Assembly (NCBI GenBank): GCA_943356465.1
Contig: CALREX010000003.1
Location: 110,450-174,449, forward strand
Direction of reading: 5' to 3'
Source of the DNA: Candidatus Peribacteria bacterium
GTDB taxonomy: Bacteria > Patescibacteriota > Gracilibacteria > UBA1369 > LOWO2-01-FULL-3
Length of the DNA: 64,000 nucleotides
The translations under genes and the position numbers were made by a program. The notes below the pieces were generated by a model. The model was not told where the DNA came from. It made no database searches and saw only the letters and a program-made list of their open reading frames with translations. Shown here piece after piece: positions 29,308 through 41,386 of the stretch (positions are counted from its first letter, which is position 1; each line of letters begins with the position of its first letter).

Positions 29308-29862
29308 ATGTCACAAGCTTCCAAACTTGCACTTATCAAAGAAATGATAGATTCAGCCGAGTCCAGTTTACGTTCAGCGAAACAACTTGTAAGTGAATTA
29401 ACAGGCTCAAAATCAACAAAAGCTGTATACTCAAAAGTCGCTGAAACATTGGAAGATACAGACCACGATGGCGAAGATACTATTGTAGAAGGAGTTTACA
29501 ACGGGCAAGTTATGATAGATAAGACAAAAAAAGAATATCCGATTCCTGCAAACTACGCCAGTAAATCAAAATTAATTCCTGGAGACGTTCTAAAACTAAC
29601 TATCAAGCCGGATGGATCTTTTGTTTACAAACAAATCGGTCCTGCACCAAGAAAACGAATAGTTGGAACACTTACATATGAAGACGGACAATACAAAGTA
29701 ATAGCAAACGGCAAAGCCTACAAAGTATTACTTGCCTCAGTTACATATTTCAAAGGAGAAATTGGCAACAAAGTAACAATTGTAGTACCTGAAATCGAAG
29801 ACAGTGAATGGGCTGCAATTGAAAACGTATTGCCTCCTGAATCTGAAAAATTAGATATTTAA
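29308..29862 (+). CDS. Hypothetical conserved protein, 184 aa
   Basis: The first about 45 residues form an amphipathic helix or coiled coil (SKLALIKEMIDSAESSLRSA). The rest is beta-rich, with the segments EGVYNGQVMIDKTKKEYPIP and IPGDVLKLTIKPDGSFVYKQ suggesting a small barrel. The C-terminus is acidic (PPESEKLDI). There is no signal peptide or membrane segment. I do not recognise the family. The strong promoter at 29239-29267 suggests high expression, and the next gene (membrane protein, 10 nt downstream) is in the same operon, closed by a terminator at 30520. Confidence 0.75.
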   Translation: MSQASKLALIKEMIDSAESSLRSAKQLVSELTGSKSTKAVYSKVAETLEDTDHDGEDTIVEGVYNGQVMIDKTKKEYPIPANYASKSKLIPGDVLKLTIKPDGSFVYKQIGPAPRKRIVGTLTYEDGQYKVIANGKAYKVLLASVTYFKGEIGNKVTIVVPEIEDSEWAAIENVLPPESEKLDI

Positions 29863-29871
29863 TAAAAAATA

Positions 29872-30486
29872 ATGGCAGATAACATACCTCAACCGGCACA
29901 GATTGCACCAGAACCGATTCAGCCTGCGCCACAGCCTACAGCCGAGCTTACAATTACACCAGAACCTACACCGGCAGCAGCAGTACAAACACCAGAACCT
30001 ACACCAATAGCGGTAGCTACACCTGAGCCAATTTTCGCACAAACTTCAGCACCAACACCTCTTGCAATGGAAGCACAGATAATTCCTACTGTAACCACAC
30101 CTGAAACAGCTTCAATCACAGACAAAGTGACAAATTTTAAGTTATACATAATAATTTTTACATCAGTAATAGGCCTTGCAACAGTTGGATATGTTACATA
30201 TTCATTCTTCTTTAGCGGCTCATCTCAGACAAAAACAGAGACAACTCCACCACCAAGCGTCGTGTCTCCTTTTAACAACGACAACACACAAACAACAAGC
30301 ATTACACCGGAAAAAACTTCTCAAGACTCAACTCCACCATCACTCGGAGGAGGAAAAAGTGATTTCGGCAAAACAGTACAAGATCTAAAAGATGCATCGA
30401 CAGGAACAGATAAAGTCTATGACAATGCCATACTAGAAGAAACAACTCCAACAAGCACGGACACAACAAAAAAAATTCACAGATAA
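29872..30486 (+). CDS. Hypothetical membrane protein with Pro-rich N-terminus
   Basis: Residues 1-80 are a Pro/Ala/Thr/Glu repeat region (PEPTPA, APEPIQPAPQPTAEL), which would lie in the cytoplasm if the single membrane helix at about 89-115 (YIIIFTSVIGLATVGYVTY) has the usual orientation. The C-terminal about 90 residues are Thr/Ser/Gly-rich and low-complexity. No domain is recognised. It shares an operon with the 184-aa protein and lies just before the pilT operon. Confidence 0.7.
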   Translation: MADNIPQPAQIAPEPIQPAPQPTAELTITPEPTPAAAVQTPEPTPIAVATPEPIFAQTSAPTPLAMEAQIIPTVTTPETASITDKVTNFKLYIIIFTSVIGLATVGYVTYSFFFSGSSQTKTETTPPPSVVSPFNNDNTQTTSITPEKTSQDSTPPSLGGGKSDFGKTVQDLKDASTGTDKVYDNAILEETTPTSTDTTKKIHR

Positions 30487-30577: not shown

Positions 30578-31621
30578 ATGTTCAAGTTATCGAAGATATT
30601 ACGCACAGCAGTACAATACAACGCATCAGATGTTTTCATCTCAAGCGGAATCAAGCCAACTCTTCGTATAAACGGCGATTTGGTTAAGATCGAAGAACAT
30701 CCGGAGCTGACAAAAAAAATGGCTGAGGAGTATCTTCTTGAGATCATGAGTCCGGATCAAAAAAAGATGTTCGAACAAACACTCGACATAGATTTTGCCA
30801 TAGATATCGAAACAATCTCCAGGTTCAGGGTCAACATGTTTGTCCAAAGAAAAGGTATTTCAGCCGTTTTCAGACTTATCTCGGAAAAAGTACTTTCAAT
30901 GGACGAGCTTGGACTTCCACAACAGATGAAAAAAGCGACAACATTAAAAAGCGGGCTTGTAATAGTAACCGGACCAACCGGCTGCGGTAAAACAACAACC
31001 CTCGCATCAATGATCAACGAAATAAACAGAAATCAGAAAAAACATATAATTACAGTCGAGGATCCTATTGAGTATGCTCACCAAAACAACCAGTCGGTTA
31101 TACAACAAAGAGAGGTTGGGGTACACACTCATAGCTTTCAAAAAGCATTAAAAAGCGCACTTCGTGAAGCACCGGATGTTATTCTCATCGGAGAAATGCG
31201 TGACATCGAAACAATTCAACAAGCGATAACTGCGGCAGAAACGGGACATTTAGTCTTCGCAACACTTCACACAAGAGGATGTGCAAATTCAATAAACAGA
31301 ATTATCGATGCATTCCCTACAGAACAACAAAATCAAATCAAAGCACAGCTTTCGGAAAGTTTGCAGGCTGTATTTTGGCAAACACTTATAAAAACAAAAG
31401 ATGGAAAAGGCCGCGTAGGAGGCTATGAAATAATGTTCGTAAACAACGCAATTTCGAATTTGATAAGAAAATCCGCAACACACCAAATAAATTCCGTAAT
31501 AGAAACATCTTCAAAAGAAGGAATGCAAACTATGAAAAAATCCCTTACAGACCTTCTTGAAGCAGGATTGATTACAGAAGAAAATGCAATGCTGAACATG
31601 CCTAAAGAATTTGAAGGTTAA
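30578..31621 (+). CDS. pilT: Type IV pilus retraction ATPase PilT
   Basis: PilT is a hexameric ATPase that pulls the pilus back. The N-terminal PAS-like part has ASDVFISSGIKPTLRINGDL. The Walker A motif GPTGCGKT is at residues 132-139, the Asp box has TVEDPIEY, the Walker B segment is PDVILIGEMRD, and the His box is GHLVFATLHTRG. The 347-aa length and the short N-terminus fit PilT rather than PilB. The five small membrane proteins downstream follow with 1-9 nt gaps, so this is one operon up to 34162. Confidence 0.95.
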   Translation: MFKLSKILRTAVQYNASDVFISSGIKPTLRINGDLVKIEEHPELTKKMAEEYLLEIMSPDQKKMFEQTLDIDFAIDIETISRFRVNMFVQRKGISAVFRLISEKVLSMDELGLPQQMKKATTLKSGLVIVTGPTGCGKTTTLASMINEINRNQKKHIITVEDPIEYAHQNNQSVIQQREVGVHTHSFQKALKSALREAPDVILIGEMRDIETIQQAITAAETGHLVFATLHTRGCANSINRIIDAFPTEQQNQIKAQLSESLQAVFWQTLIKTKDGKGRVGGYEIMFVNNAISNLIRKSATHQINSVIETSSKEGMQTMKKSLTDLLEAGLITEENAMLNMPKEFEG

Positions 31622-31630
31622 ACAAACACA

Positions 31631-32170
31631 ATGACAAAAATCACAAACAAAAATAAGAAATTTCTCTCAATAATTTTTACAACAATATTTGCAATCACAA
31701 CTTTTGCAACATTTTCACAAATTTCTTTTGCTACAGAATCATCAGCCCCTGTAACACCTGCATCACCTGAAACACCAGCGAAACCAACTCCAGCAACAAA
31801 ACCAAGTATATCAGGCCTTAAAGACCTGAAATACGATGTAAACAAAGAATTAAAACTTCCTGGATCAACAACAATAACAGACGACAATCAACCAAAAACA
31901 TATTTCACGGATACAAAAAATCCACCGATCATCTCTTTCCTTTTAAAATTGATAAATTACGCGACAACAATCATAGGAACAATCGCAATGATAATTTTCA
32001 TCATAGCAGGATTTATGTTTATGATCGCGCAGGGAGATCAGACAAAAATAGACAAAGCAAAAGAGATTTTCAAATACGCAATTTACGGTTTAATCATAAC
32101 ATTTTTGTCATATTTGATCGTAATATTCGTACAGTCATTATTCATCACTCAAACTCTTTCACAAACTTAA
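31631..32170 (+). CDS. T4SS-pilin-like double-span protein 1
   Basis: First of five consecutive small proteins sharing one design. It has a signal helix (about residues 10-33, ending SFATES), a Pro/Thr/Ala linker, then two hydrophobic helices: the first runs to IAGFMFMIA, then a polar turn QGDQTKIDKAKEIF, then a second with YGLIITFLSYLIVIF. The pattern helix-G(D/N/E)-x5-KAK-helix-G-SY matches the TrbC/VirB2-type pilin fold as found in the T4SS_pilin family, common in Patescibacteria (family link from memory). It is the first gene after pilT. Confidence 0.75.
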   Translation: MTKITNKNKKFLSIIFTTIFAITTFATFSQISFATESSAPVTPASPETPAKPTPATKPSISGLKDLKYDVNKELKLPGSTTITDDNQPKTYFTDTKNPPIISFLLKLINYATTIIGTIAMIIFIIAGFMFMIAQGDQTKIDKAKEIFKYAIYGLIITFLSYLIVIFVQSLFITQTLSQT

Positions 32171-32177
32171 AGAAACA

Positions 32178-32873
32178 ATGAAAAACAAAGCAAAAAAAAT
32201 CTTGAGTACACTCACGCTGACAAACATAATTGTTATAGTTTTTGCCATGACACTGTCTTTTTCAACTAGTGCATTCGCAACAGACTTGGATCCAAACACA
32301 ATAGCAGCTCTAGATACAACTCTAGACACACAACACAACGCACCATGTATCACAGAACAAGATCGACTTGCAGGTTGGATCATAACATTCATAGAAGAAC
32401 CTCTTTCGTTGAAAGAAGACACAACAGATCCAAAACTACAATCCAGACTCTGCTACAGAAGCACACTACGATTCCTTAAAGAAGACGGCACTGAAAAAAC
32501 AATTACAGAACTAGCAAACAAAACCACAGGATGTTCTCAAGAAGCCGAAGATATCTCAAATGACCAATTAATGGTCGATAAATACAAAATCTCCTACAAT
32601 TGTCGTGCAATCATGGCAATTTTGGCAAAAGGAGGAGCTTCATATATTGAAGGCTACATCGGATTTATTTACAGATGGGCAGCAGGCCTTTCAGGTCTTA
32701 TTGCAGTCGCAGTAATAATACTAAGCAGTATACAAATTTCATTTGCAGGAGGAGACAGCGGAGAAGTCGACAAAGCAAAAGGAAGAATCCTGAAATCAAT
32801 AGCCGGACTTGCAGTATTATTCCTATCAGGACTTATTCTTTACACAGTAAATCCAACATTTTTCACAAGATAA
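32178..32873 (+). CDS. T4SS-pilin-like double-span protein 2 with Cys-rich insert
   Basis: Second of the five. At 231 aa it is the longest. After a signal helix (ending SAFATDL) comes a soluble insert of about 120 residues containing four Cys (APCITE, RLCYRS, TGCSQE, YNCRA), which may form disulphides outside the cell. The two C-terminal helices follow, with the diagnostic turn AGGDSGEVDKAKGRI between LSSIQISF and IAGLAVLFLSGLILY. The insert makes it a candidate tip or adaptor subunit (inference). Confidence 0.72.
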   Translation: MKNKAKKILSTLTLTNIIVIVFAMTLSFSTSAFATDLDPNTIAALDTTLDTQHNAPCITEQDRLAGWIITFIEEPLSLKEDTTDPKLQSRLCYRSTLRFLKEDGTEKTITELANKTTGCSQEAEDISNDQLMVDKYKISYNCRAIMAILAKGGASYIEGYIGFIYRWAAGLSGLIAVAVIILSSIQISFAGGDSGEVDKAKGRILKSIAGLAVLFLSGLILYTVNPTFFTR

Positions 32874-32874
32874 C

Positions 32875-33336
32875 ATGAAAAACATTCTAAAAAAATTATT
32901 GATTCTGGCTTTCATCTCGATATCACTATCGACAGCTGTTATGACAGTTTCTTATGCATCACAGGTGGTAACACCGAATTTTGTTCCATCTCTAATTCCA
33001 AAACCATCAACACTCCCTGGACCCGAAGCTTCAGAGCAAACAAACACATCAACAAGACAATTGCTCGTAGACAAAATACTTCCAAGATTCGCGGTTGGCA
33101 TGATAGGCATGACTGGAGGATTCGCATTGCTTATGATTGTAATAGGTGGAGTTCGTTATGTAACAGCATACGGAAATGATGAAGCAGCGGGAAAAGGAAA
33201 AACACAAATTATTTATGGAATCGTGGGAATGATTGTAGCATTGCTCGCATACACAGCAGTAACAGCAATCACAAATATACGAATAGATAACAACACGACT
33301 GCTCCTACGACACAGACACAACCGGCAACTAAATAA
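32875..33336 (+). CDS. T4SS-pilin-like double-span protein 3
   Basis: Third of the five; 153 aa. Signal helix about residues 7-27, a short Pro-rich linker, and two hydrophobic helices with the turn AYGNDEAAGKGKTQI between IGGVRYV and IVGMIVALLAYTAVTAI. The C-terminus is Thr/Gln-rich. It starts 1 nt after the preceding stop. In this copy the Lys-Ala-Lys of the turn is Lys-Gly-Lys. Confidence 0.75.
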   Translation: MKNILKKLLILAFISISLSTAVMTVSYASQVVTPNFVPSLIPKPSTLPGPEASEQTNTSTRQLLVDKILPRFAVGMIGMTGGFALLMIVIGGVRYVTAYGNDEAAGKGKTQIIYGIVGMIVALLAYTAVTAITNIRIDNNTTAPTTQTQPATK

Positions 33337-33338
33337 CA

Positions 33339-33743
33339 ATGAAACATATAAAAACACTAAAATTAGCCGCAGTAATAGCATTTCTAAATCTCACAAATTT
33401 GGCTACAGCATTTGCAGATCAACCAAATTTGGATACTTTGACACCACGTCCTGGTGACGCGACAAAATACTCAGATTTGAACCCAATTAAAAAACTGCCA
33501 AACGTAACACTTGAAGCGGGAATCGCAGATGTAATAAAAACAATTTTAGGATGGTCGATGATCCTGACTTTAGCAGCATTGATATTCACAGGAATATTTT
33601 ATTTAAAATCACGAGGCGAAGATGATGACACAACAAAAGCAAAAAACATGTTGAAAAACTTACTTATAGGAATGCTGGTAATAGCATCAGCCTATGCGAT
33701 AGTAGCAGGAATAGCAAAAATAAATTTCTTTAAAGCGGCATAA
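33339..33743 (+). CDS. T4SS-pilin-like double-span protein 4
   Basis: Fourth of the five; 134 aa. Signal helix ending ATAFADQ, then a linker PRPGDATKYSDLNPI and two helices with the turn SRGEDDDTTKAKNML between FTGIFYL and LIGMLVIASAYAIVAGI. It is the most canonical copy, with the Gly-x3-Tyr of many VirB2-like pilins at IFTGIFYLKS. It starts 2 nt after the preceding stop. Confidence 0.77.
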   Translation: MKHIKTLKLAAVIAFLNLTNLATAFADQPNLDTLTPRPGDATKYSDLNPIKKLPNVTLEAGIADVIKTILGWSMILTLAALIFTGIFYLKSRGEDDDTTKAKNMLKNLLIGMLVIASAYAIVAGIAKINFFKAA

Positions 33744-33745
33744 AA

Positions 33746-34162
33746 ATGACAAAACAGATAAGAAAATTTGCAATAATGATAACACTAGCCATAGCCATAA
33801 GTTTTGCAATATCTGCATTTTCCGCATCAGCATACACAATTCCAGAACAATTCAGACCGCTAAACGAACCATTCGGCATAGGAAAAGAACTGGATAGCTC
33901 ACAAGGAGGATCAACAACCTCCGGAACAATAGTGTTTTTACAAATTCTGGCGGGAGGACTGCTTTATTTCGCCGCTCCAATAGCCGTAATAATCATAATA
34001 ATGACAGGCTTCAACATGGCACTCTTAGGTGCAGAATCAGAAAAAATCGAAGAAGCAAAACGAAGCCTGACATGGGCAGCGACAGGCTTGTTTTTAATAA
34101 TTTTCTCTTATACACTCGTGAGAATAATCATCGCATCAGCCCTTCAAGCAGCATCAAGCTAA
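33746..34162 (+). CDS. T4SS-pilin-like double-span protein 5
   Basis: Last of the five; 138 aa. Signal helix ending SASAYTI, a Gly/Ser linker, and two helices with the turn LGAESEKIEEAKRSL between MTGFNMA and TGLFLIIFSYTLVRI. Its stop codon overlaps that of the convergent metG (34159-34161 and 34160-34162), so there is no room for a terminator between the two transcription units. Confidence 0.75.
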   Translation: MTKQIRKFAIMITLAIAISFAISAFSASAYTIPEQFRPLNEPFGIGKELDSSQGGSTTSGTIVFLQILAGGLLYFAAPIAVIIIIMTGFNMALLGAESEKIEEAKRSLTWAATGLFLIIFSYTLVRIIIASALQAASS

Positions 34163-35682
34163 TCCTCAATTCTAGGAAAAAGAACTTCGCTTTTTGAAAC
34201 AGCTGTTCCCTGCTTTAAAACTCCCCATTTCAAAGAATCAAGTTTCAAATCATTACTATCAGCTCCAATCTGTTTAAGGATTTTCACTGAACATTCAGGC
34301 AAAATCGGAGAAAACAAAATTCCTACAAATCTAAGTAATTCCAGAAGGTTATACAAAACCTCAGGGACACTTCCAGGATTTTCTTTTGCCATTGCCCAAG
34401 GTTTTTTATCATCGATATACTTATTTCCAAGATTCACAATAGAGATCAAAGCTTCGCATGCAACCTTCAAATCAAACCTTTCAAAAGCGGCTTTATAGGC
34501 TTCAACAGAAAGCATAAGCTGTTCATAAACACCTCCTCCATCAGCCATTTTAGGCACTTTCCCCTCACAATACCGATCAGTCATCATAACAACACGATTC
34601 ACCAAATTCCCCATGCTGTTCGCAAGTTCACTATTGAAAACCTCCAAAAATCTTTTGTGCGAAAAATCACCATCATCGGTAGTTGGAATTTCTTTAAGCA
34701 GATAATATCTCATTGCCTCACTTCCATATTTTTCAACATACTCAAGCGGATTTATGACATTTCCAAGGCTTTTGCTCATTTTTTCCCCTTCACTTGTCAC
34801 AAATCCATGCACATAAATAGCTTTCGGCAGAGCAAGTCCGGCAGACATAAGCATTCCAATCCAAATTCCGGCATGAAATCTTAAAATATCTTTCCCAATC
34901 AAATGTACATCGCACGGCCAAAATTTCTTGAAAGTATTCCCCTCATCACCATCCTCAGCATATCCAATTCCGGTAATATAATTCGAAAGCGCATCACACC
35001 AAACATACATCACCTGTGAATCATCATTTGGAACCGTAACCCCCCAAGGAAGCACATCTTTCGGACGCGAAAAACTCACATCCTTAAGACCTTCCTCCCC
35101 TATCAAATTCAACATTTCATTTTTTCTCGCCTCAGGAAGAATAAGCAATTTATCACTTTCTATAGCCTTTTTTATAGCATCAGAATATTTTGAAAGTTTG
35201 AAAAAATAATTTTCCTCTTCAAGAGTTTTCGGTTTTTTCTTATGAATAGGACAATTTCCAGCTTCATCCAAATCTTTCTCGGGAATAAAAGACTCGCACC
35301 CAACACAATAATTTCCTTTGTAAATTCCCTTATAAATATCTCCGGCATCAAACATTGCAGTCCAGATTTTCTGTGCACCTTTTTTGTGATGCTCGCTACT
35401 TGTACGCACAAATCCATCATAAGCCAGATTCAAAATTCCTTTTAAATCTTCAAATTGTTTTGCATTAAAATCAACAAACGCCTTCGTCTCCATGCCTTTT
35501 TCCTGTGCCGCTTCAAAGATTTTCACACCATGCTCGTCAGTTCCAGTAAGAAAAAACACACTATCCCCTTTCGCACGATGATAACGTGTAAGCGCATCAG
35601 CTTGCACAAATTCAAGCGCATGCCCGATATGTGGCGCCGCATTTACATATGCAATCGCTGTCGACAAATAAAATTTATTCAT
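34159..35682 (-). CDS. metG: Methionyl-tRNA synthetase
   Basis: This enzyme charges tRNA-Met. The HIGH motif is PHIGHALEF at residues 17-25, the second signature is GEKMSKSLGN near residue 300, and TGTDEHG follows in the Rossmann fold. One zinc knuckle is visible (CVGC ... NCPIH). At 507 aa it ends without the C-terminal tRNA-binding EMAP/OB domain of longer MetG, so it is the short form. It is the last gene behind the pilus operon and may be read through from it. Confidence 0.96.
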   Translation of the reverse strand: MNKFYLSTAIAYVNAAPHIGHALEFVQADALTRYHRAKGDSVFFLTGTDEHGVKIFEAAQEKGMETKAFVDFNAKQFEDLKGILNLAYDGFVRTSSEHHKKGAQKIWTAMFDAGDIYKGIYKGNYCVGCESFIPEKDLDEAGNCPIHKKKPKTLEEENYFFKLSKYSDAIKKAIESDKLLILPEARKNEMLNLIGEEGLKDVSFSRPKDVLPWGVTVPNDDSQVMYVWCDALSNYITGIGYAEDGDEGNTFKKFWPCDVHLIGKDILRFHAGIWIGMLMSAGLALPKAIYVHGFVTSEGEKMSKSLGNVINPLEYVEKYGSEAMRYYLLKEIPTTDDGDFSHKRFLEVFNSELANSMGNLVNRVVMMTDRYCEGKVPKMADGGGVYEQLMLSVEAYKAAFERFDLKVACEALISIVNLGNKYIDDKKPWAMAKENPGSVPEVLYNLLELLRFVGILFSPILPECSVKILKQIGADSNDLKLDSLKWGVLKQGTAVSKSEVLFPRIED

Positions 35683-35732: not shown

Positions 35733-36974
35733 CTAATACCAATCCTTGGAGTTTTTATAAGTACTATACAAAGAGAAATTGAAAACAGGTATAAAACTAT
35801 CACGCTTCAAATTCACACTAATACTCTGTTTACTGTTGCCACTGTAACCGTTTGAAACGATCTCAGAATATTCACGAACAGTCTTGTTGTCATACACAGC
35901 ATTACCATCCAAAACAGCTCCATCCTCACCAAAAAGCTCAATCCTATAATACAATTTCGACATATCAAGTCTTCGTGATTCAGGAATACTATCCGCAAAA
36001 ACAGACGGATTCATAAGATTCGTCAGAGTCAAATAATTCAGTTTATGCTCCTGCAAAAAAGTTGAAATATCATAACAACTCGCAGTACTCAAAACTTCTC
36101 CATTTTCATAAATATAATGCTCACGTGCCTGTGTATTCAAACAATTTCCAACAACAGTTTTTGCGATGTCATTGCCGAGATGAACCTCTTGATATTCTTG
36201 AGATCCATATTGAACACATTTTATTCCGTCAGTATACCTCTCACCTTTAGCATTGCTGCAACTTATACTTCCAAACCAGGAAGGATTTGCCGCATTAGCA
36301 GGATTTTTTTCTCCAGCATTATTTAGCAATGAAAGCGCAGTAAAATCACTGATTGATTCAGTTTTATTTTTGGTTTCATTTTTTGATATTCCCAAAATTT
36401 TCCACCTTAAAATATCCCATCCACTAAGTTTAATTTTACTTTTTATATTAAGATCGGTATTCGGATTGAAAATTCCGTAAAATTCAACAGTGAAATCTCG
36501 CACCTTATGCTCTTTCCCGTCATTTCCGACTACAAAAAGCGGAATTGTAATAGATTCATTCAAACCAAGCACACTATAAAAAGCGGTCAAATCTTTTTCC
36601 GCACTTTTCTTATCAAAATCGGACGAAAAACACGGATAAGAATTACATGTATTATCAACTTTATACTCAGTCACAACATTTTTCTCGTCATCGATTTTCA
36701 TTGGCACAAAGCCTTTTTCTTTAGTTTCCCATCCCGGCAGATTATGTTTGATATTATATAGAGAAACCTCGATTCCTGACTCAGCTCCATAATAAGCACT
36801 TCCGGCATCCAAAACTTCTCTAGTCGTATAAATTTCACGTAAAACAAGTGAAGATAGAGCAAGAGAAACAGATATAAGAACACCCATTATAAGAAGCGCA
36901 GTCAAAAGCGCACTACCATTTTTCAAAAGTGCCTTTTCAATAACTTCTCTGATTTTTGCGCTAATTATTTGCAT
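35733..36974 (-). CDS. PilX-like pilus assembly protein
   Basis: An N-terminal hydrophobic helix (SALLTALLIMGVLISVSLAL, about residues 21-40) precedes a segment REIYTTREVLDAGSAYYGAE that matches the PilX N-terminal domain, where a conserved Ala/Glu-rich helix with AAEAG follows the membrane part. The remaining about 340 residues are variable and appear beta-rich. PilX-type proteins are minor pilins lacking a strict type III signal. It overlaps the upstream pilin gene (36965-37627) by 10 nt. Without homology searches the assignment rests on the N-terminus and operon position. Confidence 0.7.
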   Translation of the reverse strand: MQIISAKIREVIEKALLKNGSALLTALLIMGVLISVSLALSSLVLREIYTTREVLDAGSAYYGAESGIEVSLYNIKHNLPGWETKEKGFVPMKIDDEKNVVTEYKVDNTCNSYPCFSSDFDKKSAEKDLTAFYSVLGLNESITIPLFVVGNDGKEHKVRDFTVEFYGIFNPNTDLNIKSKIKLSGWDILRWKILGISKNETKNKTESISDFTALSLLNNAGEKNPANAANPSWFGSISCSNAKGERYTDGIKCVQYGSQEYQEVHLGNDIAKTVVGNCLNTQAREHYIYENGEVLSTASCYDISTFLQEHKLNYLTLTNLMNPSVFADSIPESRRLDMSKLYYRIELFGEDGAVLDGNAVYDNKTVREYSEIVSNGYSGNSKQSISVNLKRDSFIPVFNFSLYSTYKNSKDWY

Positions 36975-37627
36975 GTTGTAAGAGAATCATTTGGTTTATA
37001 AACTTGATTGTAAATTCTCGAAGAAATAGCTGTCTCAAAAGATACATTAAACATTTCACCGTTAAATTTCTCCTTCTCGAAAGTCGCTTTCACAAGGACA
37101 AAAGGCTGAAACTGATAAGCATCTTTAAATACATTTTTCTTGTCATAAGGATCAAGATGAGGATAAGCAAAAATCTGAAAATTCTTCACGTTCACTTCTG
37201 GAGAATTCAAAATAATTGCATTTTGAACATCACCTTTTTTGCCTTTTGAAATCTTGATAACTCCATGCTTTTTTTCAATACCGGAAGTTGAATCATTCAA
37301 TTCTTCCCTGAAAATCTTGGCAGTAAAACCACCGTCTTTTGAAATCAAATAAACCTCACTTTTTCCTCCATTCAAAGAGGTGGGATTACATATTCCGAAA
37401 TAATTATCATTTCCATAGTCAACCATACCTTCACGAAATTCTCTTACGACAGTATCAAAAACCCTTCTCGCATCAGAATACATGACACGATAATCATTTG
37501 CCTCTTTAAGCGATCTAACAATACCGGAATAAGAACCGATTAAAATCGACATAAACATAGCAAATATTCCAAGCGCTATAAGCGTTTCTACAAGCGTAAA
37601 ACCTCGTTTTAATTTATTTTTTATCAT
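36965..37627 (-). CDS. Type IV pilin-like protein (PilW-like)
   Basis: The prepilin signal KRGFTLVETLIALGIFAMF starts near residue 8, with cleavage expected after Gly9 and Glu5 of the mature protein present. The mature domain is about 210 residues. The position between PilV-like and PilX-like genes supports a minor pilin of the PilW type. It overlaps the upstream gene by 4 nt. Confidence 0.82.
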   Translation of the reverse strand: MIKNKLKRGFTLVETLIALGIFAMFMSILIGSYSGIVRSLKEANDYRVMYSDARRVFDTVVREFREGMVDYGNDNYFGICNPTSLNGGKSEVYLISKDGGFTAKIFREELNDSTSGIEKKHGVIKISKGKKGDVQNAIILNSPEVNVKNFQIFAYPHLDPYDKKNVFKDAYQFQPFVLVKATFEKEKFNGEMFNVSFETAISSRIYNQVYKPNDSLTTCK

Positions 37628-38223
37628 AAAGCTCCGCCTTTCCAGTTAGTGAATATTTCATTTAGTTTTACTTCTTTTTCTGATGTGCCATCAATCCATG
37701 AAACTTTTGAAACAATTCTCAAATAATCGCTACAAACAGGCAAACCACAATCATATGAAGAAACATAAAAAACACGTTTAAAACCATTTGCATTTTGAGT
37801 TGCTTCATTTTCACTATTGATTTGATGTACATTCCAAGGCGCATAACTACTCATCTGATCTATTCCGACCTGTGCATTTCCGGCCACAGTCCTTTCAAAA
37901 ACATCTATACTCTCAATTTCATACATATTACCTTGCCCAGCAGCAACAAATCCACTTCCCCAAATCTTCTTATTTACGTCTCCATCAAGCCAATCCTGAT
38001 TATGCAACCAGTTCGTATCACGAATATTTCTGAAAGCCTCAATTCCTTCCTGTGCATAGTAATAAGCCTGCAAAGTTTTCACATTATTTTTATTCGATTG
38101 AACAATTGTGACGAGCAAATTTGTCGCAGAAACTATGGCAACAGTCAAAATCGAAATTCCAACAAGGACCTCTGTAAGGGTAAATCCTCTCTTTTCACTG
38201 ATTTTTGTAAAAAACTTTTTCAT
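37624..38223 (-). CDS. Type IV pilin-like protein (PilV-like)
   Basis: The prepilin signal KRGFTLTEVLVGISILTVA starts at residue 11, with Glu5 in the mature form. The short motif YYAQEGIEAFRNIRDTNW after the helix is typical of PilV-type minor pilins. Four Cys or fewer remain in the mature domain (DCGLPVC, likely a disulphide pair). Overlaps both neighbours by 4 nt, so the four pilin-like genes are one tightly coupled unit. Confidence 0.83.
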   Translation of the reverse strand: MKKFFTKISEKRGFTLTEVLVGISILTVAIVSATNLLVTIVQSNKNNVKTLQAYYYAQEGIEAFRNIRDTNWLHNQDWLDGDVNKKIWGSGFVAAGQGNMYEIESIDVFERTVAGNAQVGIDQMSSYAPWNVHQINSENEATQNANGFKRVFYVSSYDCGLPVCSDYLRIVSKVSWIDGTSEKEVKLNEIFTNWKGGAL

Positions 38224-38915
38224 AATTTAAAGAAAATACTTTTTTTGTAATCAGGATTATTATCTCCATAACTTATATCAATTTTCAGTTCCACATCACC
38301 ATAACCCGTCTTTCCAGAAACTCCGTCATACAAAACTTCTATTTTCCCATCGGGCGGCAAAAAACGAACTTCAAGAGACTGAGAAACAGGAGTTCCCTGC
38401 CCACCGGAAGCGAAATTTCCAATCGATACATCGTCTATTTTTATAAGAGAATCTAACTCAAATAATTCATTCTTAGGAAAAGAACCATTGGTAACATCTT
38501 TACATCCTTCATAAACCCATGAATCACCTTGAAAAAACTTCTTTCCACTAAAGTCTTTTTGAGATGTATAAGCTAAAAATTTACCATCAGCACCTTTTTC
38601 AAATAAAACTGTAAAACATTTGGAATCAAAACCACCATTAGCTGAAGAATTTCCCGGCAAAGCATCCAATTCATTTCTTATCTCATCGGCTCTTTGGCTT
38701 TTATAAGCACCTAAAACAGCTTTATCTTTTTGCGAATTTATTTGCGAAACAATACTATCTGCAGACAAATTAAGGATTGCACTTTTTCTATATTGCAAAT
38801 ATCCGGCTATTGAAAGCATGGAAAGAACAGCAATAAGAGCCATTACAATAATTATCTCTACAAGAGTAAATCCATTTGGGAAAGCACCTGATTTTTTTTT
38901 AACTTCCAACAACAT
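38220..38915 (-). CDS. Type IV pilin-like protein (GspH/FimT-like)
   Basis: The prepilin signal is PNGFTLVEIIIVMALIAVLS, with the mature protein starting at Phe and Glu5 present. The frame is open 11 codons further upstream, but I chose the ATG at 38915 (MLLEVKKKSGAFPNGF). It gives a normal short basic leader and a 17-nt overlap with pilC instead of 50 nt. The mature region of about 215 residues has two Cys (KCFTV, EGCKDV). It is probably a minor pseudopilin. Confidence 0.8.
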   Translation of the reverse strand: MLLEVKKKSGAFPNGFTLVEIIIVMALIAVLSMLSIAGYLQYRKSAILNLSADSIVSQINSQKDKAVLGAYKSQRADEIRNELDALPGNSSANGGFDSKCFTVLFEKGADGKFLAYTSQKDFSGKKFFQGDSWVYEGCKDVTNGSFPKNELFELDSLIKIDDVSIGNFASGGQGTPVSQSLEVRFLPPDGKIEVLYDGVSGKTGYGDVELKIDISYGDNNPDYKKSIFFKL

Positions 38916-40146
38916 TGCTAAGATTAAAAATAGGAGCCATGATCGCAAGCGCCAAAAGCGCTACAAAAAGACCAACAAACAAAATCATCACAGGCTCAAA
39001 AACAGATGAAATTTTCTTAAGTCCATTGTCGATTTCTCTTTGATACTGATCCGCGATTTTCTCAGCAATTTTTCCAAGACTTGCTGAAGCCTCTCCAACA
39101 TGGAGCATCTGTACAACCTCAGCAGGAAAAAGAAAATCACTATCCATCAAACTGTCAGAAATCTTCTTACCGTCGCGCACAGCACTCATAACTTCCTGAG
39201 TCTTAAGCTTATAAAGCTTATTTGAAATTGCGCCTCCGGTAATAGCAATAGCGCGTATCACAGGAAGTCCGGCCTCAATGAGAAGACCTACCAAACTGAC
39301 AAATTGTAAAACATAAAGTTTTCGTAAAAGTCCTCCGACGATAGGAAACCTAAGCTTAAAACGATCCCATCTGTAAGCCCCATAATCACTTCCGACATAA
39401 ACATTAAAAATCCCATAAAACAACAAAGCTCCTGCTATAATAGCCCACCAATAACCTGTCACAGCTCTTTGCAAATTAAGCAAAACCATAGTCGCAAAAG
39501 GAAGTTTATCTTCCGTAACACCACCTTGTGTAAGCAAATTAAGCAAACTTGGAAAAACCCAAACCAGCATACCCACCGCAACAAGGACAAGCACACATAA
39601 AACCGCAATCGGGTATACAGCCGCTCCCCAAAGTTTTAATGACAAATCATGGCTTTTATCAAGTTGAGCGGAAAGCTTAAAAAGCATTGTATTCAGTTTT
39701 CCAGTTTCTTCTCCGGCACGTACGATTCCAACCTCGGATTCATCAAAAATAGTTTCAAATCTACTCATACTGTCAGCCAAAGTTGAACCATGTTCGCAGT
39801 TATAAGCCAAAGTATTCAAAATACGTGAAAGTCTCGGATTTTCCGTCCTTGCCGCAAGTGATTTAATAGCAGAAACAACTGGAATTCCAGCATCCACCAT
39901 AACCGCAAGCATATGGAAAAAATATGACTTATCCCTCAGTCCGACACTCGAACGATCTATAAAAAAATCATTCAGTTTTACAAAAAGTCCGCTATTTTCA
40001 TTATTATAAACTCCGTAAATAACTGTATCCACGACTTTGTCTTTTGAATTTTTTACACTATTCAAAACATCATATCCGCTTTCTGAAGCCCCAGAAACGA
40101 CAAAGTCAGTATCACGCGCACTCTGATTTTTTATATTATTTTCCAT
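38899..40146 (-). CDS. pilC: Type IV pilus inner-membrane platform protein PilC
   Basis: PilC (GspF family) is the polytopic platform on which the pilus is built. Two GspF domains are visible, the first from about residue 75 (FFHMLAVMVDAGIPVVSAIK) and the second from about 275 (FVSLVGLLIEAGLPVIRAI). Membrane helices lie near 175-205 (IAVLCVLVLVAVGMLVWVF), 235-255 and 385-405. The N-terminal about 60 residues are polar and poorly conserved. It lies in the pilus operon between pilO-like and the pilin genes. Confidence 0.93.
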   Translation of the reverse strand: MENNIKNQSARDTDFVVSGASESGYDVLNSVKNSKDKVVDTVIYGVYNNENSGLFVKLNDFFIDRSSVGLRDKSYFFHMLAVMVDAGIPVVSAIKSLAARTENPRLSRILNTLAYNCEHGSTLADSMSRFETIFDESEVGIVRAGEETGKLNTMLFKLSAQLDKSHDLSLKLWGAAVYPIAVLCVLVLVAVGMLVWVFPSLLNLLTQGGVTEDKLPFATMVLLNLQRAVTGYWWAIIAGALLFYGIFNVYVGSDYGAYRWDRFKLRFPIVGGLLRKLYVLQFVSLVGLLIEAGLPVIRAIAITGGAISNKLYKLKTQEVMSAVRDGKKISDSLMDSDFLFPAEVVQMLHVGEASASLGKIAEKIADQYQREIDNGLKKISSVFEPVMILFVGLFVALLALAIMAPIFNLSNVVGS

Positions 40147-40165
40147 AAAGTAACTCTTTCAATAA

Positions 40166-40750
40166 TTATTTTTTAAGATAAAAAGCCTGCATAGAAAGCG
40201 AAAAAGTCGCTCTGGTAGAATCCAATAAATCCGTTTTTCCAAGCTGAACATTTATACTGTCAACAATCAAGACTCTCGCATTTTGCTCAAGACTCTCGAG
40301 AAAGGACACGAGATCATTATAATTTCCCTCAAAACTTGCATTTATTCGAAGCGAACCAACTCCCTCCTTACTCGAAGAACCTTTTCCAAATCCTATAGAA
40401 TTAAGCTTTATATCATGAACTTTCGCCGTATCTATAAGATCGCGAATAATTTGATCCTGATCGATGTCTTTCGGAACAGACTTGAGAAGTTCTGTTTTCT
40501 TCACTTCACTAGACAAATCAAGCTCCTTTTCAGCCTTGGTCATTTCCGCAACTTTGGCTTTACTCTGCTCAATTTGCAAATTTTTACTGGAAATATCAGC
40601 ATTCGTCTTGCCAACATCCATAGCCAACCCTCTGGTATAAAAAACATATCCAAATAGAACAAGAAGCATCAGGAAAATGCCCGCAAGAGCACTTTTATTA
40701 CTACTGCCTTCCACGTATATTTGTTGACCTTGTACATTTTGTTCTAACAT
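40166..40750 (-). CDS. PilO-like pilus alignment protein
   Basis: One membrane helix (about residues 21-40, ALAGIFLMLLVLFGYVFYTR) is followed by a coiled coil (Lys/Glu/Ala-rich, about 42-85) and a ferredoxin-like domain with SLRINASFEGNYNDLVSFLESLE, the PilO hallmark. PilO pairs with PilN to connect the cytoplasmic and outer parts of the machine. The length of 194 aa is normal. Confidence 0.85.
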   Translation of the reverse strand: MLEQNVQGQQIYVEGSSNKSALAGIFLMLLVLFGYVFYTRGLAMDVGKTNADISSKNLQIEQSKAKVAEMTKAEKELDLSSEVKKTELLKSVPKDIDQDQIIRDLIDTAKVHDIKLNSIGFGKGSSSKEGVGSLRINASFEGNYNDLVSFLESLEQNARVLIVDSINVQLGKTDLLDSTRATFSLSMQAFYLKK

Positions 40751-40783
40751 ATTTTTGTTTTTATTTTAGTAATTTTTTTAAAT

Positions 40784-41386
40784 TTATCGTGAAATTTTAT
40801 TTGCACCAATTGCAGTGTCAGGCTTGCTATCGCCAAGACCGGCCTCACTAAGAGAAACATCAGCACTGTTTGGCAAATATTTCATGCTGATCAAAAATGT
40901 CAAAACCTGAGCACCTTTATCATCAACTCCATTTGAAATTGAAGGTACAAAAGCATCCTTGAAATACACACTTGCATTAAATCCTTTAATTAAATCAGCA
41001 ACATCAAAATAAGGATTTTCCGCTTTCTCATTTGTTTTTACATTCATCGAAATCTCATTATTCGAAGATCCGGAATACGAAAGAACTGTAACTATAGGCT
41101 GTCCATCAACCTTTGGGATAGTTTTTCTAATTTTCTTTATAACACTGGACCATTCTATAATTCCTTCATTTTTGAGTTCATTTATAGTTTTTTTTGCATT
41201 TATAGACTCCAAAACCTGCTTGTTTTCATACTGCAAAATCTGTTTGCCGTAATCAGCAATAAGCGCATCAGCCTTTGTTTCTTCGGTCGAAAGCGTCGAA
41301 ACTTGCCATGACAAATACAAATTGTATCCACCAAAAGCAACTACAGCTACAATTCCCAAGATCATTAGTGTTGAAAACCTTTTCAT
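40784..41386 (-). CDS. PilN-like pilus alignment protein
   Basis: One membrane helix (about residues 7-27, TLMILGIVAVVAFGGYNLYL) is followed by a coiled coil (about 32-75) and a C-terminal alpha/beta domain containing WSSVIKKIRKTIP and VTVLSYSGSSNNEISMNV. This is the PilN layout, and it precedes the pilO-like gene as in other bacteria. It is the first gene of the operon; pilM, which normally precedes pilN, is absent here. A -10 box TGGTAAAAT lies upstream. Confidence 0.72.
   Translation of the reverse strand: MKRFSTLMILGIVAVVAFGGYNLYLSWQVSTLSTEETKADALIADYGKQILQYENKQVLESINAKKTINELKNEGIIEWSSVIKKIRKTIPKVDGQPIVTVLSYSGSSNNEISMNVKTNEKAENPYFDVADLIKGFNASVYFKDAFVPSISNGVDDKGAQVLTFLISMKYLPNSADVSLSEAGLGDSKPDTAIGANKISR

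Follow-up and report, generated by a model that had tools for sequence, protein, structure and literature searches.

Five conserved pilin-like subunits encoded downstream of pilT in a Candidatus Peribacteria genome

Introduction

The present study deals with a 64,000-nucleotide stretch of DNA (the window) from a Candidatus Peribacteria bacterium (assembly GCA_943356465.1, contig CALREX010000003.1, positions 110,450 to 174,449, forward strand), in which pilT is directly followed by five short genes for membrane proteins resembling pilins of type IV secretion systems (T4SS), here designated P1 to P5. These genes are a real, conserved and lineage-wide pilin operon of five subunits. The host genome comprises 1.08 Mb at 98% completeness and was surveyed through family searches and a choice of stretches; the nearest relatives of its PilT (95% identity) belong to Peregrinibacteria.

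To live on other cells, cultivated Patescibacteria need type IV pili together with a T4SS that is poorly understood. Type IV secretion in Patescibacteria has been published: arrays of 2-11 VirB2 genes, whose members share 25% identity on average within an array, were reported from 383 assemblies and read as host versatility; a pilin array was found to be essential in Ca. Southlakia epibionticum, and in Microgenomatia and Gracilibacteria VirB6 was described as rare or missing (PMC12102498). PilT is not mentioned in that text (PMC12102498). Below, f numbers denote families within the class sample, L numbers loci and G numbers genomes.

Results

Gene arrangement and protein architecture

The gene pilT (30578..31621, plus strand) encodes an ATPase of the PilT/PilU family with 347 amino acids (aa), which reached 455.7 bits against a TIGR01420 cut-off of 319.1 as the only gene above cut-off in its genome and carries a Walker A motif (GPTGCGKTT) and a Walker B-like motif (DVILIGEMRD). 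Directly 3' of it, on the same strand and with intergenic gaps of 1-9 bp, follow five open reading frames (ORFs): P1 (31631..32170, 179 aa), P2 (32178..32873, 231 aa), P3 (32875..33336, 153 aa), P4 (33339..33743, 134 aa) and P5 (33746..34162, 138 aa). The convergent metG (34159..35682, minus strand) then closes the array and, as judged by synteny, flanks it in most relatives.

Four of the five proteins passed the curated cut-off of the T4SS_pilin family PF18895 (26.6 bits), namely P1 with 34.3, P2 and P3 with 33.9 each and P5 with 30.3 bits; P4 stayed below it with 22.1 bits (22.5 in the genome search) and was attributed to the array solely from its position profile and from synteny. Thus the sequence-only reading, which had recognized pilT and five consecutive T4SS-pilin-like proteins, was borne out in gene order and spacing and, with P4 below the cut-off, in family. 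Each protein begins with a hydrophobic signal helix and a signal peptidase I (SPase I)-like site whose last residue is Ala; a linker then leads to a hairpin of two helices, which was also obtained in the AlphaFold model of P1 (H99-132/H137-177). The polar turn pattern G-(D/N/E/S)-x5-(K/E)-(A/G)-K, previously proposed for all five, is exact in P1 to P4, whereas P5 has a turn one residue longer (G-A-x6-E-A-K). The strong sequence divergence noted before was likewise found, as the paralogues in the window share just 16-29% domain identity. The type IV prepilin motif G-F-T-L-x-E at the helix start is missing from P1-P5; it is present as GFTLVE or GFTLTE in three neighbouring ORFs (36965-38948). 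The Mbov_0395 model for pilin-like conjugal transfer proteins (NF045849, cut-off 40 bits) was best matched by P4 with 32.7 bits, below cut-off, and a search of PHROGs gave nothing useful.

The exported linkers differ between the proteins. A motif IP(K/R)PxxLPG is found in the linker of P3 and in many of its orthologues, and P5 bears the motif RPxNxP at its mature N-terminus; both conserved motifs could be docking segments. In seven loci (L013, L018, L022, L023, L025, L030, L042) an extra small segment with four or eight cysteines was observed in the exported linker of P1 or P4.

For P2, an insert of 120 residues with four Cys had been proposed, and an exported region of about 110 residues with Cys57, Cys92, Cys119 and Cys142 was indeed found. 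In an alignment of 31 orthologues C119 and C142 are invariant and C57 and C92 are conserved in at least 90%. The AlphaFold model of P2, with a mean predicted local distance difference test (pLDDT) score of 89.3, displays an alpha/beta, strand-containing domain (residues ~39-150) ahead of the hairpin H153-189/H194-224. A fold search with P2 against the PDB returned no significant match, and many of the low-probability ones were cyclic-nucleotide-binding folds. A role of P2 as tip, adaptor or receptor-binding subunit seems plausible.

Conservation of five subunit types

Related PilT loci (n = 35, L009-L043) were surveyed for synteny, and pilT-linked arrays proved to be conserved, with the array directly 3' of pilT and on the same strand in 29/35 loci. 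Other sequence or genes lie between pilT and the array in L033, L037, L041 and L043, where the array is ~0.6-1.5 kb off, and the contigs of L034 and L036 stop short of the array. After profile iteration 28 loci were complete and, like the window, contained exactly five pilin domains each. Partial loci are cut by contig ends apart from L012, which has four domains and a disrupted stretch at the place of P4 that may represent a frameshift. Chance adjacency or mis-called ORFs were ruled out by the 28 syntenic loci, which carry the same five types nearly always in the same order.

When leave-one-out position profiles were applied to the 28 loci and the window, 142/145 domains went to their own position. 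Two of the three misassigned domains reflect an order swap of P1 and P2 in L028, in which their identities are kept, and the third is a near tie in L041, the most divergent locus. Orthologue identity averages 41-56%, within-array paralogue identity 22.5%, with a maximum of 33%. Because the profiles sort nearly all domains and the remaining three are explained, P1-P5 are regarded, from sequence comparison, as five ancient, non-interchangeable subunits and not as variable copies. The multi-subunit VirB2-like set that had been suggested from the window is in this respect upheld by family membership and orthology, which together define five distinct types.

A fixed number of five with one-to-one orthology is predicted by a machine of five unlike parts, not by a variable pilin reservoir. 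An array of exchangeable pilins that serves antigenic variation or a switch of host range, an idea put forward for VirB2 arrays of the Bartonella type, would agree with the low within-array identity that is also known from patescibacterial VirB2 arrays (PMC12102498); with the copy number fixed and the five positions corresponding to distinct orthologous groups throughout the lineage, it is highly improbable, and for antigenic variation the one-to-one orthology rules it out.

Fusions and splits of the set were also observed. A fusion of P3 with P4 occurs in f3 and f6 and one of P4 with P5 in L027, as would be expected for subunits that meet one to one. The set of f11 is divided, most clearly in L121, L125 and L149: P1 and P2 form a pair, and three genes stand apart as a set of their own. 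Together these arrangements suggest two subassemblies, P1-P2 and P3-P4-P5.

PilT, the type IV pilus and the distribution of the array

On the minus strand behind metG lie type IV pilus genes (35733..41386), comprising pseudopilin-like ORFs, three of them with the prepilin motifs mentioned above, as well as PilC and PilO/PilN-like genes named by reading the sequence; the PilC family PF00482 was found in the host genome. They are the likely partner machinery of PilT, which fits an ordinary type IV pilus retraction ATPase and, being the sole PilT of the genome, should serve the neighbouring pilus. Upstream of pilT, two genes without Pfam match were noted between DUF1290 and pilT (29308-30486); in many relatives the gene for the 184-aa protein is conserved ahead of pilT or of the array. 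A scan of the locus for promoters and terminators gave signals little above shuffled background, and hence no claim on transcripts was built on it.

The linkage of pilT and array is kept in f1 (8/8), f5 and f6, and possibly in f2, where the contig starts inside P1. Array-linked PilTs form one clade (99% support, 27 rows), apart from a second PilT type often located beside pyrH and frr; f6 possesses both types and f1 the linked type only. The association of PilT and pilins recurs elsewhere: in f23 (L146-L148), next to PilTs of a separate clade, there follow a protein with several pilin domains and a short one resembling P2, and G100 (f11) has a PilT of the linked type oriented divergently to a set of three pilins. 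Among the 29 best-scoring PilT loci of the phylum sample, a pilin within 1.5 kb of PilT occurred in f1 members only, and outgroup PilT loci showed no pilin adjoining PilT.

The P2 profile gave strong matches in most Peregrinibacteria-type families among the 117 class genomes and weak ones in f9, f15, f19 and f23; beyond the class it matched essentially the hairpin part only (best E 4e-20). All five types occur together without an adjacent pilT in f3, f4 and f14. PilC and PilT are both missing from eleven class genomes, six of which (G008, G013, G033, G044, G067, G073) keep a strong P2 match and VirB4; P1-P2 were kept in all three f20 loci inspected, which belong to such genomes. Some PilC/PilT-less genomes are only 76-90% complete, which makes single absences weaker than repeated joint absence, and joint absence of PilC and PilT recurs within f18 and within one f20 genus.

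Three explanations other than the favoured one, a secretion complex that shares its operon with a pilus motor, have to be weighed against this distribution. One is a direct action of PilT on the pilin complex, in which a secretion system devoid of VirB11 would have enlisted it as a VirB11/DotB-like ATPase to power assembly, disassembly or opening. This would account for its co-directional position abutting the array in most related loci, the single supported clade of array-linked PilTs and the recurrence in f23 and G100, and it would agree with DotB and TraJ, which take the part of VirB11 in type IVB systems, being members of the ATPase superfamily of PilT. However, PilT stayed far below the cut-offs of the models for DotB (TIGR02524, 156.8 bits against 463.3), VirB11 (TIGR02788, 60 against 249.95) and TraJ, the type IV pilus, too, has to rely on the one PilT of the genome, five-sets occur where pilT is not adjacent, genomes devoid of pilus and PilT retain P2 (plus P1 where inspected, in f20), and pilins are missing beside PilT in the outgroup and outside f1 in the best-scoring phylum loci. 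The link to pilT is real and recurrent, not obligatory, and direct PilT action is therefore a minority hypothesis, which we rate as unlikely. The earlier proposal of PilT as the motor of the fibre was in consequence not sustained, given also the VirD4-like ATPase encoded with the five-set in f3 (see below).

The five proteins might instead belong to the type IV pilus as accessory subunits, such as those of a collar in membrane or cell wall, and do no more than resemble secretion pilins. Their being encoded with pilT and beside the pseudopilin operon, in a metG-pseudopilin neighbourhood kept in many relatives, speaks for this, but P2 (and P1 in the f20 loci) persists where PilC and PilT are gone, f3 ties the set to a coupling ATPase, and P1-P5 are without the prepilin cleavage motif of their pseudopilin neighbours, so this explanation, too, is improbable.

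A third explanation, compatible with a five-subunit secretion complex, regards the adjacency of pilT and array as functionally meaningless, an inherited order in compact genomes. The linkage does track one PilT clade, is lost in f3 and f4 and is interrupted by other genes in the four loci with a distant array, yet tight spacing persists where PilT has diverged to ~65% identity and a second PilT clade also lies beside pilins; mere inheritance is thus considered rather improbable.

Genes for secretion ATPases and further pilins

A VirB4 was identified on contig C6 of the own genome as a TraG/TraC-type ATPase of 789 aa, and VirB4 occurs in 112/117 class genomes. About 2 kb from this gene a 791-aa protein without Pfam match is encoded (L101:2739-9498), and a TSP3/PKD-repeat protein a few kb beyond the latter. 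Two further VirD4-like proteins of the genome are located on C3 and C2. In three genomes of f3 a VirD4/TrwB-like type IV coupling protein (T4CP) is encoded directly upstream of P1 (L108:6872-9352, L109:7653-9704, L119:3288-5303), in or near the place of pilT after dus. The coupling ATPase of L108 is in frame with P1 (826 aa), which keeps its own start and signal peptide intact; this fusion may be a sequencing artefact.

In total 15 PF18895 matches were counted in the genome, ten of them outside the array. On the minus strand of contig C5, beside secE-nusG (L092:1-5253), two adjacent proteins of 324 and 325 aa contain three tandem T4SS_pilin domains each, and a third of more than 1070 aa combines one pilin domain near its N-terminus with several PKD repeats, like a pilin-anchored adhesin. 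Another pilin set of the same genome hence holds seven pilin domains (1+3+3), and the number five alone therefore proves nothing with regard to a pentamer.

Discussion

The five-set was placed with the type IV secretion system, because VirB4 is present, the signal peptides are SPase I-like and a prepilin motif is missing. We give somewhat better than even chances to the interpretation that P1-P5 are fixed VirB2-like subunits of a patescibacterial T4SS whose operon is shared with a pilus motor in this lineage. In the proposed mechanism, each pilin would leave via Sec, undergo cleavage and enter the membrane as a helical hairpin whose topology places the short polar turn in the cytoplasm and the N-terminal linker outside. 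One of each type might assemble into a defined hetero-oligomer, be it a channel, a short pilus or its base, on which the P2 domain, probably stabilised by disulphides, would be exposed as likely tip or adaptor. VirB4, encoded elsewhere in the genome, is the likely assembly ATPase, and pilT in the operon most likely couples the expression of pilus retraction, which would draw a partner cell near, with the deployment of the secretion complex.

Several results weigh against this assignment. The TrbC/VirB2 family PF04956 (cut-off 27.9 bits) was matched below cut-off by P1 (21.3) and P5 (19.4) and not by the others, so that the profile comparison proposed earlier favours T4SS_pilin for four of the proteins and leaves TrbC/VirB2 membership unsupported. 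Fold searches of P1 and P2 against the PDB retrieved generic helical hairpins and no solved conjugative pilin, and profile searches of two alignments (A2, corresponding to P5, and A3) against PDB sequences yielded nothing relevant, again no conjugative pilin. No virB4 was found within 20 genes of the array, which lies on C3 and VirB4 on C6, and co-occurrence with VirB4 is weak evidence, since VirB4 is nearly universal in the class. Moreover, two genomes of high completeness, G016 (f3) and G045 (f4), contain the full five-set and no detected VirB4, possibly owing to assembly gaps. Dispersed T4SS genes have been reported in the class for TrsD and VirB3.

VirB6 and VirB5 are pentamers in known systems (PMC12857230), and an asymmetric hetero-pentamer of P1-P5 could replace the pentameric layers of VirB6, VirB5 and VirB2. 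In this case P2 would be a tip resembling VirB5, and the upstream gene, for PilT or T4CP, would supply the dedicated ATPase; we regard this more specific model as quite doubtful.

For the fixed VirB2-like subunits favoured here, one-to-one conservation would mean a secretion complex built from fixed unlike parts, contrary to the published reading as variation. Complex prediction and biochemistry gain five defined targets from the operon, and the recurring ATPase slot, occupied by PilT in some families and by a VirD4-like protein in another, makes cross-talk between pilus and secretion testable.

Comparison with known systems

PilT of the window is a clear member of its family (TIGR01420) with intact nucleotide-binding motifs, but its gene is situated upstream of secretion-type pilins and not in a pilB-pilC operon; in Saccharibacteria, pilT sits inside a complete type IV pilus locus (PMC12206443). 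DotB and TraJ, as members of the same secretion ATPase superfamily, set a precedent for T4SS use of an ATPase resembling PilT, from which the present case differs in the unreached model cut-offs and in that no type IVB components were identified here. With the VirB2/TrbC pilins (PF04956) the five proteins share a signal peptide, two hydrophobic helices, a polar turn and, in P1 and P5, weak profile similarity; they differ from them by staying below the family cut-off, by five fixed types in place of the conventional one major pilin and by the added exported domain of P2. Closest are the published patescibacterial VirB2 arrays (PF18895), in which divergent T4SS_pilin genes likewise stand in tandem and the genome likewise encodes a VirB4 of the Patescibacteria type. 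No earlier description of the locked five-type set or of the slot for pilT or T4CP was found in the accessible literature, and it is by these features that the operon stands apart from the published arrays: five orthologous types are locked one-to-one, adjoining pilT or a T4CP gene and away from virB4.

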